Part shown: positions 1-9,084 of the stretch, piece after piece
How the letters are laid out: every line of letters starts with the position of its first letter
Position numbering within the stretch: position 1 is the first letter of the stretch
Assembly (NCBI GenBank): GCA_035532835.1
Contig: DATKQG010000024.1
Location: forward strand, 1-48,828
Source: Candidatus Dormiibacterota bacterium
GTDB taxonomy: Bacteria; Vulcanimicrobiota; Vulcanimicrobiia; Vulcanimicrobiales; Vulcanimicrobiaceae
DNA: 48,828 nt
Direction of reading: 5' to 3'
The notes under the pieces: generated by a model
The model's database searches: none
Told to the model about the DNA's origin: nothing
What the model saw: the letters and a program-made list of their open reading frames with translations, nothing else
Program-made: the position numbers and the translations under genes

Positions 1-638
1 TGGTTGCCTTCGATGGTTGCCAGCAGGCCGGCGAGGGCGCACGCCCCGGCAAAGCCGGAGCAGACCGATGCTGCGGGAATATGTTTTTTCCCCGCGCCCC
101 ATAAGGGAATGGCGGTCGCCGAGAGCAGCACGCCGGTGTAACCTGCGACGAAGGCGCCGAGGACGGCCTGCAGCGGAGTGGTAACGCTCGGCGCCAAATG
201 ACGCATCCATCGCGGCAGTACGCCCGCATCGGCGAGTTCTCTAGCCACGTTCGCACCGGCGGCTCCCGAGAAAAAGATCAATCCCCAGACCCCGAGCGAC
301 ATCGGCGATTTGATTTTAACGATGCGCAACATGTGCAGAAAGCGCTCGGGGCGCCCGAGGTGAGAAATCAGAATCAACGGATTGATCGCCGCTAGCGCAA
401 ACGACGCAAACCGGGCCGAGCGGCGCAATCGGCGTTCGTCTTCTTGATCTTCGCGCGCGATCGTCGCGAGGACGCCGAGGCCCCCCATCACGCCGCCGAG
501 GAAGAGGTACGTGATGACGTTCCACTCCCAATGCGGTGCCTTAAGCATCGGCCGCTCGAAGTACGTCGGCGTCGCCGGCAGCGAATCGCGCCCGGAGGCG
601 CCGGCAAAGGCTTCGTCGGGACTCGCTACGTTACGCAT
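1..638 (-). CDS. NrfD-family membrane subunit of formate dehydrogenase (partial, runs off left edge)
   Basis: This is the membrane anchor and quinone-reactive subunit expected to take electrons from the Fe-S subunit encoded just upstream. About 212 residues are visible, starting MRNVASPDEAF; the 3' end lies outside the window. A soluble N-terminus of about 40 residues is followed by hydrophobic helices, with HLGRPERFLHML between the second and third. That Gly-Arg-Pro-rich loop is characteristic of NrfD/PsrC polysulfide-reductase-type subunits and unlike the haem b subunit FdnI. The ATG overlaps the stop codon of the Fe-S gene by 8 bases (631-638), so translation is probably coupled. Family assignment is firm; the exact quinone used is inferred to be menaquinone from other genes in the window. 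Confidence 0.85.
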   Translation of the reverse strand, partial: MRNVASPDEAFAGASGRDSLPATPTYFERPMLKAPHWEWNVITYLFLGGVMGGLGVLATIAREDQEDERRLRRSARFASFALAAINPLILISHLGRPERFLHMLRIVKIKSPMSLGVWGLIFFSGAAGANVARELADAGVLPRWMRHLAPSVTTPLQAVLGAFVAGYTGVLLSATAIPLWGAGKKHIPAASVCSGFAGACALAGLLATIEGN

Positions 639-1480: not shown

Positions 1481-4400
1481 CTACACTCCTTTTTCGGGGC
1501 TGGGTTTATCGCCCTGGCCCATCTGTCGCATGCCATGGCTGGCATCCTTGCCGCTGTCGGCACGCGCATGGTGCGCGAGTGCAGCCGGATCGCGGAGGTC
1601 CTCCGGTCCCAAGGCCGACGATTGCCCCATCGTCGTTCGTTCGCTCATCGGCACGTCGGCTTCGACCACGCCTCTATGGCGCGGCGCGCGCCGGCCGGCA
1701 CGGATGTTGCACGTCAACGATTTGGATTCGTGGATCGAGACGTTAGGATCCATCGAGAGCGCGATCAAATCGCCCACCGAATCGCCGCGCGCGAACGCCA
1801 CTTGATTGCCGTAATTGTACGGTATGCCGATCTGGTGCACGCGTTGTCCCTTCGCGATGCGTAGCGGGCGCAAGCGGCCGCTCACGAGTGCGCGCGCCTC
1901 CATCTCGCCGAGTGCCGTCGAAATCGTCACCCATCCGCCATTCTTGATGCCCTTCTCCACCGCGAGTTCCGGATTGAGCTCGCAGAATGCGGCGGGCTGC
2001 AATTCGGCAAGCCACGGAACGTAGCGGGTCATGATGCCGGACATCTCGGTGACGCGGTAGGTCGTCAGGACGTACGGGTATGCGGCATCGATCGCTTCGT
2101 TGTAGGCGTTGTCGGGGCGATCCCACTGGCGCAGCATCGGATTGCTCTGTTGCTCGTAGAGGGGGTTGCGAACGACGGATTGCAGCGGCTCGTAGTGGGT
2201 CGGTAACGGCCCGTCTTTGAGCGCACCGTTCACAAAAAGCTGTCCTTTGCCGTCCACGTTCATAATAAACGGGTCGGCCCCAGAATGCGCGTCGAGCCCT
2301 TTTCCACCGGGAATTGCGGGCGTCGTCGGGGCTTTCGTCTTGGGAAAATCGGGAACGTCGTGTCCGGTCCACTCGTGGCGCTCTTCGTCCCACCAAACGT
2401 ACTTTTTGCGCTCGCTCCACGGCTTGCCGTCCGGGTCGGCGGACGCGCGGTTATAGAGCGTGCGCCGGTTCGCAGGCCACGCCCAGCCCCAATTGAGTGA
2501 GGTGGAGTCGTCGCCGGTGCGCGAGCGCGCGTGATTGGTGTGTTCGTCGGGGCAGACTCCGGTAAAGATCCAGCCGCCGGCCGCGGTCGAGCCGTCGTCC
2601 ACCAGATCGGTAAAGGCTTTGACTTGTTCGCCCGTCGCCGTGTAGAAGCCGTTGATCTCGCGCAGTACGCGAAGTGCCGAAGGCTCGCCTTTGGCACGCT
2701 CGTGCGGGTCGTCGTGATCGTATTCCCACGTCATATCGAGAATCGGTCGATCCTTCGGGTCGCTCGAAGCCGCGTAGAGTGCCTTGAGGCGCTTCCCCAG
2801 ATCGTAGAAATACCATAGATCGCTATGCGCGTCGCGAGCGGGCTCGATCGCTTTGTCGTGCCACTGTAACAGGCGACTGGTTTGCACCATCGTGCCTTCT
2901 TTTTCGAGTACCGTGGCGCCCGGTAAGAAAAATACCTCAGTCGCGATTTTTGACGGATCGGCGCCCTCGCGCTTCCAGAACGAAACCGTCTCGTTGTCGT
3001 AGAAGTCGATGTTCACGAGCCAATCCAATCGCTCCATCGCCGAGCGCGTAAGCTCGCCGTTCTGGCTCGAAGCGCCCGGATTCTGGCCGATGACGAAGTA
3101 GCCTTTGACGTTGCCGTCTTTCATCGCCATCGTGGTCGGTAACGTAGAATGATCGCCGGTTAATTGCGGCAAGTACTCGTAGCAATAATCGTTTTCTTTC
3201 GTTGCGGCGGTACCGTAAAACGCCTTGAGCAATGAGACGACGTATTTGGGCATGTTCGCCCACCAGCCGGTCGGCTTCGTAGTGCTCTTGAGATAGCTCC
3301 CGAGCGTCTGTTCGTCGCGTAACGCGGAAGGCATGGGGAGATAGCCCGGGAGCAAATCGTACAGCGTCGCAATATCGGTCGCGCCCTGGATATTGGCGTG
3401 CCCGCGCAACGCCATGATGCCGCCGCCCGGGCGCCCGATATTACCTAGCAGCAACTGCAAGATGGCCGCAGTCCGAATGAACTGCACGCCGGCCGTGTGC
3501 TGCGTCCAACCAACCGCGTAGGCAAAAGCGGTGGTGCGTTCGCGCCCGCTGTTTTTCGCCAGCAACTCCGCGATCTTCAGGAACGACGCCTGCGGCGTGC
3601 CGCAAACGTTCTCAACCATCTCCGGCGTGTAGCGCGCAAAGTGGCCTCGCATGATGTTGAGGACGCAGCGCGGATGCTGCAACGTCGGGTCGTTGACGAC
3701 GGCACCGTGCTCGTCGCGCTCGAAATCCCAGGTAGCGATGTCGTAGCCGTTCTTCTCTTCATTCCATCCGGAAAACAAGCCGTGCAGATCCTCGGTATCG
3801 ACAAAATCTTCGCGTACGAGATGCGATGCATTGGTGTAGGCGGCGACGTACTCTTTAAAATACGATTCGTTGGCCAGCACGTGATTGATGATGCCGCCAA
3901 GGAATACGATATCGGTCCCGCTTCGAATCGGCGCGTACACGTCGGCCATTGCGGACGTGCGCGTGAATCGCGGGTCGACGTGAATGATCGTAGCGCCGCG
4001 CTCCTTGGCCTGCATGACGAAGCGAAACGCGACCGGATGCGCTTCGGCAAAATTCGAACCTTCGATGAGGATGCAATCCGCGTTGGCTAGATCCGGAACC
4101 CAGACCGTTGCGCCGCCGCGACCGAACGAGGTGCCGAGACCCGGCACCGTCGAGGAGTGTCATATTCGCGCTTGATTTTCAATCGAAACCACGCCGAGCG
4201 AGTGCATCAACTTCCCGAGCAGGTAGTTCTCTTCCACGCCGAAAGTGGCGCCCCCGAGCGAAGCGATGCCGAGCGTGTGGTTAACGCGCTTGCCTTCCGA
4301 GCTTCTTACGAACGTTTGCTCGCGCGTTTCTTTGACGCGTTGCGCGATGCGTTCGAGCGCCCAAGCGAGCGGCCGCTCCTCATAACGATCTGAATACGGC

Positions 4401-4732
4401 GCGCGATACTTTACCGTAGTCCAACGCTGGTCGTTGACGGTCAGGCCAAAGATCGCCGAGCCTTTGGGGCACAGGTGGCCGGCCGATATCGGGCTGTCGG
4501 GATTGCCCTCAACATCGAGAAGCTTGCCTTCGTCGCTAACGTACGCAAGCGTGCTGCAGCCTACCGCGCAATACGGGCACAGGCTGACGACCGGTTTTGC
4601 GTGAGCGATGCGGCCCTCGAGCGTTCGCGTACGTTCGGACGCAAGGTTGGGCATCATGCCGATGCGTTCGCTCAAACGTAGTCCCCCGCCGGACGATAGC
4701 ATTTTCGTGAGATCGATCGTCGTTTTTGCCAT
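1481..4732 (-). CDS. fdhA: Selenocysteine-containing formate dehydrogenase catalytic subunit (TGA at 4160-4162 read as Sec)
   Basis: Oxidises formate to CO2 at a bis-MGD molybdenum/tungsten centre. Two reading frames in register, 4732-4163 and 4159-1481, are separated by one TGA. The residues around it read ENQARI-TGA-HSSTVPGLGTSFGRG, matching the selenocysteine site of FdnG/FdoG-type enzymes (NQARV-Sec-H). Full length is 1,083 residues with Sec at 191. Cys52, Cys55, Cys59 and Cys88 (CPYCAVGC...CPKG) bind an N-terminal [4Fe-4S] cluster. The ATG at 4732 follows GAGGGG; an ATG at 4744 is an alternative. Unlike E. coli FdnG there is no twin-arginine signal peptide, so the subunit may face the cytoplasm. 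The last 55 or so residues are a polar extension without a clear family match. SelA, SelB, SelC and SelD must be encoded elsewhere. Confidence 0.95.
4127..4162 (-). promoter_or_regulatory. Bacterial SECIS element with its selenocysteine UGA codon
   Basis: Reading the minus strand, TGA (4162-4160) is followed after exactly 18 bases by the loop GGTCT (4141-4137). The loop is closed by a perfect 7-bp stem, GGTGCCG (4148-4142) with CGGCACC (4136-4130). Below it, CGA and TCG can pair across one bulged C at 4149. As I recall the E. coli fdhF element, loop sequence and loop-to-UGA distance are the same, and a U sits at the same offset in the stem. This hairpin is what SelB recognises to decode UGA as selenocysteine, so the TGA is not a nonsense mutation. 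Confidence 0.93.
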
Positions 4733-4806
4733 GCTACCCCTCATGAAGCGACTCGTAGCCTAAACGGCCCAAAAGGTTTGTGCCCATAGTGACCGATTAC
4801 TGAACT

Positions 4807-7488
4807 ATGCAAGCGTTAGATGCACCCATTGGGTTGCACTTCGCCCAAGAGCTCTCGAGTTGGCTTGAAGCGGTTGTCTCCAACCGCGATTTTAGCCTAT
4901 CACCGCAGCTTCAGGACGATCTTACCCCCGAAGAATCCGCCATCCTCGCGGCGACGTTCGAAATGGTCCGCACCTTTAGCGGTGAGTTCGAACGATATGT
5001 GGCCGTCATCGGGCATGCCGATGCCGCGATCGCCCGCAATGCCGAGCAGGTACGGTACGCGCTCGCCGATGCCACGAGTTACAATCGCTTGATCGAGCAT
5101 GCGTCCGCTACCCTGGACCAAGCGCGCAGCGGCTCTATCCACGTGGCAACGCAGACCGAATCCCTCGAACGCGAAGCGCTTGGGGCGCGGGATGCTTCGC
5201 GGAGCGCGCTCGGCGAGGTGGCGCGGGCTCGGGTCGAGCCGCTCGTAGCGTCGATCCAAAACGTGGAGACGTCGGCCGGCGCGCTCCAGCGGACCTCGCT
5301 GGGCCTCTCCGCTTTCGTCGAAGGGATAGCGCGGATCTCGCGCCAGGCCGGGCTGCTCAGCACCAATGCGCTCATCGAAGCGGCCCATTTTGGGATGGCC
5401 GGTAAGGGCTTCGGCATCGTCGCGACCGAGGTCCGGACGCTCGCCGAATCCACCAAGGATTCCGTCCGCGATATCGGCTCCATCGCGCGACAGCTTCGCG
5501 AATCGACGGCGCGCGTCGGCTCGGTTACCACCGAGGCGCTGCACGCGGCCCAGCAGCTTGCATCCGATACCGGCGCGATCGCTCGAGGGGTCGAGCGCAT
5601 CGATGCGTTGGTCGCTGCGTTTGCGGAACCGGTCGAGGCGATCGCGGCGATCGCGGCCGAGCAACAGGCCGCGTTGCCGCTGCTGGCCGAGAACGTCGAT
5701 AGCGTTGCGATGCAGGCTGAGGCCACGGCCAAGGCGGCTGAGGGCGCCGCTGCGATCGACCTGGAGGAGATGTTCTCTCAGGCGCGCTCCCTGATCGCGT
5801 CCTACCGCTTCGCGGATGCGTCGGCGTCGCGTGTTATGCCGGCGGTAGAATCCACGCTCGTCGAAGCGATCGTGCGCGTTGCCGGCGGCGAGACCGACGC
5901 GCTTGCAAGTGCGGGCATCGGTAGCGGCGATCCCGCCGCGGCCCTGGTCGTGCGGGCGGTGGCGGATTTCGCGAGCACGCTTGCGGCGAAAGAACGCGAG
6001 GTTCTCACGACGGTCATGCGCGTTGCCGTCGCGGTCGCGCGCAACAGTTTTTCGTGGAAATCCATCGCAACGAATCTCTCGGAATTGAAGGCGTCGCTGC
6101 ATGCCGGCAATCGCGCGCTGACGGAATCGCGCGAAGCCGCGCACTCCTTGCTCACCTCCGCTCGCACCATGCAGCGCCTCGGCGACGAACTACGCTCCGA
6201 AATCGAAGCGCCGGCACGCTCGCTCGCCGCCTCGGTCGCGTCGCTGGGGACGGTTCGCGAGCAAGTGGGGCTCGTTCGCACCGTCGTGGAGGAGATGTCG
6301 GCATCGCTGGATCGGGCCGGTGCGATTCTCAATCTCGTCGATGAAATCTCCGAGGAGACCAATCTCTTGGCGCTCAACGCCGCCATCGAAGCCGCCCATG
6401 CCGGCACCGCCGGTTTGGGTTTTTCAGTGATTGCCGGAGAGATTCGCAAGCTCGCCGACCGAACGCACGACGCCACGCGCGAAGTGAGCGCAGTGATCGA
6501 AGCCGTCTCCGCATCGGGCCGCGAGATGGGCGCCGGGACGAGCGATGCCACGGAGCGGACGCACGAGGTGGAAGATCGGGCTCGCGATATCGAGGGCGTG
6601 GTGGAGAAGCTCTTGCAGACGATTGCCCGCGCCGTCGATCGGGCGCAAGAACTGGCGGTCGTAGCGCAGCAGCAAGTGACGGGATTCGACGCGCTCTTGC
6701 ACGAGATCGACGCGGCCGTGAGCGCGATCGATGCAAGCGCCGCGACGGCCACCGACACGCGTCGCTTGGAACTTGCGAACGTCGGACGCCAAGCGCACGA
6801 CCTCGCCGCGCATCGCACGCTCGGAACGTTTGCCGAACGCATCCGCGATTGGGGATTGGCACTGGCACAAGAGATGGACGAAGCGTTCGACGATGCCGTC
6901 GATCGCGGCGCGATGACGCTTGCGGATTGCAAGGATACCGGCTATCAACCGATCGTTGGGACGCGCATCGCCGAGCTGGCGCGGCTCTTCGATGTCTCGC
7001 GCGTTACCGCGGCCGGATTCGATCCGCCGAAATTCGCCACGCGCTATGACCGTGCGGTCGAAGACGGGATCGACGCGATCATCGATCGCTGGGTGCCGAA
7101 GGATCCGGCGATTAAGGCGATGTTCGCCGTCGATCTCAACGGCTATTGCTTCGGGCACTACAAAGAGTGTCGCCGGGATTGGACCGGCGATTACGTTACC
7201 GATCTCAACGGCAATCGAATCAAACGGTTCTTCGAAGACGTGCTGAGCCTGCGTTGTTCGCGGGTCGGGCTTGGAGACGCGGCCGACGACTTCCCCGCAC
7301 GCACTCCATACGAACGGTTCGAACAGGCGGGATGCGACCTGTCTCGCCCTCGCGGGCGGCGCCCCTGGGCGATCTTCACCTACGCTCGCGATACGGGCTT
7401 GGTATATAACGATCTCTCGGTTGCGCTCTACGTTAAGGACCGGCGCGTTGGAACGATCCGCATCATCTACGATCCCGACGTGTTATAG
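4807..7488 (+). CDS. Soluble tandem methyl-accepting-chemotaxis-like protein with C-terminal sensor domain
   Basis: A chemoreceptor-like signalling protein of 893 residues with no membrane helix. It carries two coiled-coil signalling modules. The first tip (about residues 180-215, [19 protein letters not shown]) is degenerate. The second (about 512-560, [18 protein letters not shown]) is a canonical CheA/CheW-contacting hairpin. Residues from about 680 to the end (with [12 protein letters not shown] and a final RVGTIRIIY) resemble the C-terminal Cache-like sensor of alphaproteobacterial chemoreceptors. It diverges from the formate dehydrogenase operon across only 74 bases and converges with a formate/oxalate-type transporter, so a role in sensing formate, oxalate or redox state is plausible but unproven. 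No Shine-Dalgarno sequence is obvious before the ATG. No cheA, cheW or cheY lies in the window. Confidence 0.85.
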
Positions 7489-7555: not shown

Positions 7556-8896
7556 CTATGCGGCAGCTTCGCGTGGGAGGTTCGTGGGTTTTTTAACGAA
7601 GAACGGGATGACCGCCGCGACGAGTAGCATGATCGCGACCGGAATGAGTGCGCCTGAGAACGATCCCGTCGCATCCTTGACGCGCGCGGCGATAAACGGC
7701 CCAACGACTCCGCCGAGGCCCCACGCGGTAAGAATCATCCCGTAGTTAGCGCCGAGGTACTTCGTGCCGAAGAAGTCGGCATTGAAGGACGGCATCACGC
7801 CGAAGCCTCCGCCGTAGCAGAGCAGCACGATCGCGAATGCGAGGCCCACCAACGTGAGAGAGTGGAATCCACCGAGCAAAAAGAAGACGACGACCTGAAT
7901 GAGGTACATTACCGTGTACGTCAGGCCGCGTCCGATTCGATCGGAGATGCTCCCCCAGAGGAAACGGCCAAGCCCGTTGAAGATGGCGAGGAAACCATAT
8001 GCCGGAGCGGCGACGGCCGCGGAGGCTTTGGTCAGCTCGATGATAATCGGCACGGCATTCGAGATGATGAGAATACCCGCAGTTACGTTCAGGAAGAGCA
8101 GCAACCAGAGGCCGTAGAGTTGCGGCATGCGTAGAGCTTCTCCGGGCGTGAAGCTGCCGGCAGAAGCGGCGGCGGTTGCGGTCGCGCCCGACAGCGTGTA
8201 ATTCGCCGGCGGGTTCTTCATGAGGAACGCGCAGAGGCCGCCCAGGACGATAAAGACGACGCCGGACACGACGAAGATCGACATCACGCCGGCAACTTGA
8301 TCGTGCGATAGCTGATAGGTCGAAGGATCGAACACCGTGCCGGCCTTGATCGCCGCGTCGCGCGCGGCAACGTACGCGCCGGACGCTTTCGCGGCCGATG
8401 CGAAGATGGCGATTTTCGGAACAATTTGGTTATAGAAAAAGGCACCTAAACCGAAGCCCATGACGACCAGGCCGCTACCTAATCCACGGCGATCCGGGAA
8501 CCATTTCGTCACCATGGCAACCGGCGTGACGTACGCCATGCCGTTACCGAATCCAGCGATGATTCCGTAGGTGAGGTAGAGCCACCACTGGCCGATGGCT
8601 TGCGTTCCGAGCCCGGCGAGCGCGATGCCAAGACCCCATAGGACGACGCCGACGATGGTGACGGTACGCGGACCGACGCGGTCTTGCCAGCGTCCTCCGA
8701 ATACCGCACCGAGTCCGAGGAAGAAGATTGCGAGTTCGAATGGAGTCGTTGCACCTTGCTGACTCCAGTTAAATCCCGCGATGAGTGAATTGGTGAAAAT
8801 ACTCCACGAGTAGACGGTGCCCAGGCAAATCATTACGATCACGCCCGCAAGCGCGATTCCCCAACGGTTACCCGTTGATGTGGGAGTGGAAGCCAT
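7556..8896 (-). CDS. MFS transporter of the oxalate/formate antiporter (OFA) family
   Basis: A 446-residue, roughly 12-helix major facilitator protein. The N-terminal stretch RWGIALAGVIVMICLGTVYS, the loop FGGRWQDRVGPR after helix 2, and GFGNGMAYVTPVAMVTKWFP are typical of the OFA family, which includes OxlT and YhjX. OxlT exchanges oxalate for formate; other members move pyruvate, lactate or unknown acids, so the substrate is not certain. The nearby formate dehydrogenase favours formate, oxalate or a related acid. The ATG at 8896 is preceded by AAGGAG at normal distance; the longer frame to 8914 would place that ribosome-binding site inside the coding region. The gene ends at a strong terminator. 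Confidence 0.88.
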   Translation of the reverse strand: MASTPTSTGNRWGIALAGVIVMICLGTVYSWSIFTNSLIAGFNWSQQGATTPFELAIFFLGLGAVFGGRWQDRVGPRTVTIVGVVLWGLGIALAGLGTQAIGQWWLYLTYGIIAGFGNGMAYVTPVAMVTKWFPDRRGLGSGLVVMGFGLGAFFYNQIVPKIAIFASAAKASGAYVAARDAAIKAGTVFDPSTYQLSHDQVAGVMSIFVVSGVVFIVLGGLCAFLMKNPPANYTLSGATATAAASAGSFTPGEALRMPQLYGLWLLLFLNVTAGILIISNAVPIIIELTKASAAVAAPAYGFLAIFNGLGRFLWGSISDRIGRGLTYTVMYLIQVVVFFLLGGFHSLTLVGLAFAIVLLCYGGGFGVMPSFNADFFGTKYLGANYGMILTAWGLGGVVGPFIAARVKDATGSFSGALIPVAIMLLVAAVIPFFVKKPTNLPREAAA

Positions 8897-9084
8897 TGGA
8901 TCACTCTCCTTCAAAAAATCGCTCGTACCGTTGCAGCATCGGCACGAATCATTCGGAGTCTGTCCGGCTTGGGTCTACGAGGTTGCCTACGGGGCTAAAT
9001 GGCCAAAATGGCCCAATCCTAACAGGCTCTTAGACCAAAACTCCTGCGATAGCCGGGTTGGATTCGCCTGCCTATGCTGAAATT

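Follow-up and report, generated by a model that had tools for sequence, protein, structure and literature searches.

The stretch of DNA analysed here (the window: 48,828 nucleotides, contig C24 of the Candidatus Eremiobacterota MAG G000) encodes, on the joint reading that we favour at a probability of about 0.9, a selenocysteine (Sec)-containing Mo/W formate dehydrogenase of the FDH-N/FdhAB family, in an organism whose tRNA-Sec would have been rebuilt by a mobile island. The genome (2.89 Mb, 120 contigs, 96.3% complete, 0.35% contaminated) comes from an uncultivated soil-type bacterium. The features of the window that bear on this reading are as follows.

1481 to 4732, minus strand: fdhA, alpha subunit of formate dehydrogenase, 1,083 residues, one of them a predicted Sec, stop codon TAG, alternative upstream ATG at 4744
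4160 to 4162, minus strand: TGA, predicted Sec codon, residue 195 from ATG 4744 or 191 from ATG 4732
4130 to 4148, minus strand: apical stem-loop of the bSECIS, GGTGCCG-GGTCT-CGGCACC, with its loop 18 nt downstream of the Sec codon
631 to 1479, minus strand: fdhB, 4Fe-4S electron-transfer subunit with a hydrophobic stretch at the C-terminus (FDH-beta TIGR01582, 159 bits, below the cut-off of 335)
3 to 638, minus strand: NrfD/PsrC-type membrane subunit, cut by the contig start (PF03916, E 6e-18)
4807 to 7488, divergent from fdhA and upstream of it: gene with a chemoreceptor signalling domain
7556 to 8914, beyond the chemoreceptor-domain gene on the upstream side of fdhA: monocarboxylate-type MFS transporter

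The first-pass annotation had proposed that a formate dehydrogenase is decoded with Sec by means of a bacterial SECIS. The proposal is supported, and its coordinates, frame, codon and ENQARI-U-H context are all correct. Two minus-strand ORFs, one of 194 aa (4160-4744) and one of 888 aa (1481-4147), are separated by the single TGA at 4162-4160; when this codon is read as Sec, fdhA becomes one open frame with no further stop before the terminal TAG, and the Sec site lies in the context SIENQARI-U-HSSTVPG. The 1,083-residue product that had been announced is obtained from ATG 4732, which is preceded by a ribosome-binding-like GAGGGG. In profile searches the joined product passes both NF041513 (1448.7 bits, cut-off 1400) and TIGR01553 (1025.9 bits, cut-off 814.2), and it matches Sec-containing formate dehydrogenase structures at E values of about 1e-235, with a nearly end-to-end alignment to D. 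vulgaris FdhA in which ENQARI-U-HSS is placed against EHQARI-X-HSP and the TGA falls on the catalytic Sec (X). The architecture of the protein is that of the FDH-N/FdhAB family and is not FdhF-like.

Among the best 80 homologues, assigned by record titles to Eremiobacterota, Chloroflexota, Acidobacteriota, Myxococcota, Actinomycetota and Proteobacteria, the Sec-site codon is TGA in 60, TAG in 20 and Cys in none. The formate dehydrogenase Sec motif is listed as UHxP, as a described motif that does not define the family (PMC13188914). The fdhA motif is UHSS, in which U-H is present and the fourth residue is Ser; most relatives with a retained TGA or TAG have Ser or Ala there. In the comparison with its nearest homologue (L047), fdhA has a dN/dS of 0.044, with 0.037 before the TGA and 0.045 after it, and the latter value indicates that the part 3' of the TGA is still maintained as protein. 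We hold with high confidence that the TGA would be read as Sec, and fdhA is, as judged from its sequence, an ordinary and well-supported selenoprotein that makes ordinary use of a known system. As a side observation, the homologues with a TAG codon (L079, L081, L085, L088 and 16 others between L090 and L125) are mostly named Geodermatophilaceae and have a SECIS as in fdhA; UAG-encoded Sec with a CUA anticodon has already been published for Geodermatophilaceae formate dehydrogenases (PMC5330540).

The hairpin GGUGCCG-GGUCU-CGGCACC at 4148-4130 consists of a 7-bp stem and a 5-nt loop and folds at -16.3 kcal/mol over 40 nt (z -2.59). The stem and the loop are as first described, while the distance of 18 nt, previously given for the stem, runs from the UGA to the loop; 11 nt separate the UGA from the first base of the stem. 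A bacterial SECIS model (PMC13188914) calls for an upper stem of 4-16 bp, a loop of 3-9 nt with G among its first two bases, a UGA-to-loop distance of 16-37 nt and an energy of at most -7.5 kcal/mol; the hairpin lies within all of these limits. The match to Rfam SECIS_3 is weak (33.1 bits, below the gathering score of 63). Of 904 TGA trinucleotides on both strands of the window, 14 are followed by a hairpin that loosely resembles a SECIS and has a stem of 7 bp or more; the strict form occurs only at the fdhA TGA. The loop reads GGUCU, AGUCU or AGUUU in 59 of the 59 TGA homologues counted.

Covariation was assessed for the six upper stem pairs in an ungapped alignment of 54 sequences, in comparison with column shuffles (n=500) and slid versions. 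Paired cells amounted to 99.4%; the shuffles reached 87.5% and the slid versions no more than 57.7%. In 37 cells both sides were changed, as opposed to 12.6 in shuffles (0/500). Pair 18-30, which joins the third positions of Val and Gly codons, takes all six standard forms (GC 19, CG 16, UA 9, AU 3, UG 3, GU 2) in 52 distinct sequences, none of them broken; pair 21-27, which links the third positions of Pro and Leu codons, compensates as well. Since it is third codon positions that covary across phyla, the RNA pairing rather than the protein sequence appears to be conserved at the stem.

The machinery for Sec decoding was located on other contigs of the genome, as listed here together with the remnant of the tRNA gene.

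G000 C17:12233-13543: selA, 499 bits
G000 C17:16396-18237: selB, 321 bits, moderately above the cut-off of 242
G000 C9:53562-54488: selD, 387 bits, with an in-frame TGA
L149:9517-11363, equal to G000:C17:33516-35362: tRNA-Sec 5' half followed by inserted DNA

The prediction of a functional selA/selB/selC/selD set was borne out for selA, selB and selD, all of which exceed their profile cut-offs; for selC, only a 38-nt 5' half of tRNA-Sec is present in the assembly. A distance of 2.8 kb separates selA from selB on C17. Their products are 92% (SelA) and 94% (SelB) identical to the counterparts in the sister genome G001. The in-frame TGA of selD is at the catalytic position (...SACAG-U-AAKMD..., L144:5593-5595); hairpins fold within the allowed UGA spacing, with no Rfam SECIS match in selD, and selD itself appears to be a selenoprotein. 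Within the phylum, SelB passes the cut-off in 48 of 60 genomes and a strong tRNA-Sec match (at least 63 bits) is found in about 41 of them, so that Sec decoding is the rule there. Among the papers searched, we found no mention of Sec decoding in the uncultivated phylum Eremiobacterota. The fdhA case provides an instance of it and corrects a gene that automatic annotation would split. Separately, five genomes (G036, which is 98% complete, and G021, G026, G034 and G039) have a SelB over the cut-off and neither a complete nor a half tRNA-Sec was found in them.

Searches of the G000 assembly with the Rfam model, with two patterns and by DNA comparison with the sister gene detected no complete tRNA-Sec; the top Rfam match, on C6 (46 bits), is tRNA-Ser(UGA) and was rejected. 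What is present are the first 38 nt (GGGAGCG...GGTCTTCAAA), ending in CTTCAAA and identical to G001 at 38 of 38 positions; the break is at the anticodon loop, and from there to the end of the contig the DNA is foreign and of low GC. In G001 the intact tRNA-Sec stands beside a TypA-like gene, a histidine kinase and a DsrE-like gene (named from their translations); these neighbours recur on C17 of G000, about 93% identical, and the matching region breaks off within the tRNA. Directly 3' of the half the GC content is 0.51, as opposed to about 0.60 before it, and 1,810 bases remain from the break to the end of the contig. The ORFs of the inserted DNA gave no matches, so that its visible end encodes no recognised protein; no integrase was found in the 1.8 kb visible, no phage, plasmid or viral relatives of the insert were found, and no viral contigs with the tRNA-Sec 5' half as an att site were found. 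The insert does contain TAGTGC(T/C)TAAAT-like repeats, which may be likened to integrase arm sites. An apolipoprotein N-acyltransferase-like gene that adjoins the tRNA-Sec in G001 is missing in G000 too, and for this reason the rebuilt tRNA-Sec probably lies in an assembly gap. In a MAG of 96% completeness in 120 contigs, the absence of the tRNA is no proof of its loss. An intact, rebuilt tRNA-Sec within the gap is most likely, and a functional selC in G000 is likely.

The same kind of break recurs in the phylum. A phylum-wide pattern search found nine breaks of tRNA-Sec at the anticodon loop in 8 of 149 genomes; as this search demanded an intact loop, breaks elsewhere in the tRNA would be missed by it. 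A less biased DNA search recovered the identical break point in three genomes (G000, G004 and G025), and in G019 a contig ends exactly there. In three relatives an intact tRNA-Sec, which starts again at G1, lies downstream of the half on one contig and in one orientation (1.69 kb in G025, 16.25 kb in G106 and 3.15 kb in G124), so that fragment and intact tRNA stand at the two ends; in G000 only the fragment end is visible. The sequences 3' of the break differ among genomes, except that G025 resembles G110 and the two of G070 are alike, and G025 and G106 have homologous left flanks with different inserts. On the 16.25-kb island of G106 (L208:4910-19001, L214:1-2135) we found HsdM, HsdS and HsdR of a type I restriction-modification system, as well as a decayed integrase; no integrase was found in the 1.69-kb island of G025. 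Because an intact copy follows in three relatives, the truncations have the look of tRNA-gene islands, each of which restores the gene by supplying a 5' half, and it is these contigs with both ends that support an island reading for G000.

Several further observations were made at these loci. G025 has a second, classical island at the tRNA-Sec 3' end, with an adjoining tyrosine integrase and, at its other end, a 3' fragment of 17 bp (L188:7431-8864, L212:3070-3086). G070 has two tRNA-Sec 5' halves (L205:4762-4793, L206:5495-5524) followed by similar bases (TGCGTGAAC) and each 29-31 bp from a contig end; these are perhaps a tandem of islands. An integrase in G004 is a doubtful agent of the tRNA-Sec break in that genome, as it sits at a contig end beside the apparent end of another tRNA. 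Neither in G025 nor in G106 did a search for an island-borne promoter before the rebuilt tRNA give a sigma-70-like match; the native site in G000 lacks one as well, and the search is hence uninformative.

The main alternative is that Sec decoding has been lost in G000, in that mobile DNA destroyed the sole tRNA-Sec without rebuilding it and translation of the formate dehydrogenase stops at the UGA. Four different searches return only the 5' half, and G004 (96% complete, SelB present) likewise has the 5' half only. However, selA, selB and selD are intact, the identity of SelA and SelB to their sister-genome counterparts remains high, and fdhA is strongly constrained 3' of the UGA. The missing apolipoprotein N-acyltransferase-like neighbour points instead to an assembly gap, and the three relatives with a like truncation have their intact copy downstream. 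On balance we regard such a loss as improbable; a very recent one may have taken place. An intron in the anticodon loop that is spliced out was also considered, as the break is just behind the anticodon, at the usual place of tRNA introns, and the tRNA-Sec of Daphnia and that of Lokiarchaeota are known to contain introns (PMC5330540). No intron family was found in the inserted stretch, however, no 3' half follows within the 1.8 kb to the contig end, the inserts of relatives are mostly unrelated, and the second copy restarts intact at G1; an intron is thus rejected as highly improbable. Finally, a genuine stop codon or a sequencing error at the TGA, with the two ORFs being separate genes or a pseudogene, agrees with the way in which gene callers would split fdhA but is scarcely credible given the covarying SECIS, the downstream dN/dS of 0.045 and the fact that all 80 homologues, from several phyla, have TGA or TAG.

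Under the favoured reading, a Sec-containing formate dehydrogenase together with an island-rebuilt tRNA-Sec, SelB would bind the fdhA hairpin and bring Sec-tRNA-Sec to the UGA, through which the ribosome would read. The start codon of fdhB at 1479 directly follows the fdhA stop and the gene for the NrfD-type subunit is next in the operon; electrons from formate would pass to the 4Fe-4S subunit, the NrfD-type membrane subunit and then quinone. No twin-arginine motif was seen when the fdhA N-terminus was read directly, and in the absence of this signal the enzyme probably faces the cytoplasm; we infer a cytoplasm-facing, quinone-linked formate dehydrogenase. At the tRNA locus, a mobile island would have targeted the tRNA-Sec gene of G000 and left the native 5' half behind, while its own 5'-half copy would have rebuilt an intact tRNA-Sec at the far end, in G000 within the assembly gap.

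The half tRNA-Sec is a more useful lead than fdhA itself. As the tRNA is single-copy in most genomes of the phylum and serves few proteins, an island that captures it could control a whole amino acid. It is conceivable, and in our estimate unlikely, that islands of Eremiobacterota repeatedly enter tRNA-Sec at the anticodon loop, restore it with a 5' half of their own and, by cutting this sole Sec-decoding gene from its native upstream region, place it under island control or leave it switched off in some states. If true, formate dehydrogenase and SelD would depend on a tRNA-Sec island. More generally, the presence of SelB without tRNA-Sec in a MAG can reflect an island and its assembly rather than loss.

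Among known formate dehydrogenases, fdhA aligns over nearly its full length with the FDH-N/FdhAB alpha subunits (TIGR01553; D. vulgaris FdhA 6sdr and E. coli FdnG 1kqf), with which it shares Sec at the equal position, the N-terminal 4Fe-4S domain and an accompanying 4Fe-4S subunit; its best family match is the subgroup NF041513. It differs from them in that no twin-arginine signal is seen, in UHSS for UHxP, and in an operon with an NrfD-type membrane subunit. The first-pass annotation had likened the hairpin to that of E. coli fdhF; the likeness is confined to the distance of 18 nt from UGA to loop and the loop letters GGUCU, which the E. coli fdhF/fdnG SECIS shares. The bulged U in the upper stem of the E. 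coli fdhF SECIS is missing from the perfect 7-bp upper stem of fdhA, which is therefore better described as a generic bSECIS. With the UAG-Sec formate dehydrogenases of Geodermatophilaceae (PMC5330540), fdhA shares the enzyme group and the SECIS, whereas the codon is TAG there and TGA in fdhA. The tRNA-Sec islands of the phylum resemble those of Islander (PMC4383910) in that a tRNA gene is split, an intact copy and a fragment mark the ends, and crossover at the anticodon loop is known. They differ from most Islander islands in that the leftover piece is the 5' half, a minority kind there (159/3919 islands), and a bacterial recombinant tRNA gene nearly always keeps its original promoter, with 5'-half exceptions seldom met (PMC8371274). 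The kind of tRNA-gene island is already known, and for G000 a single end of it is seen; an integrase in the anticodon-loop islands of the phylum was seen only as a remnant, in G106. The selC islands of E. coli, in contrast, use the 3' end of the tRNA gene.
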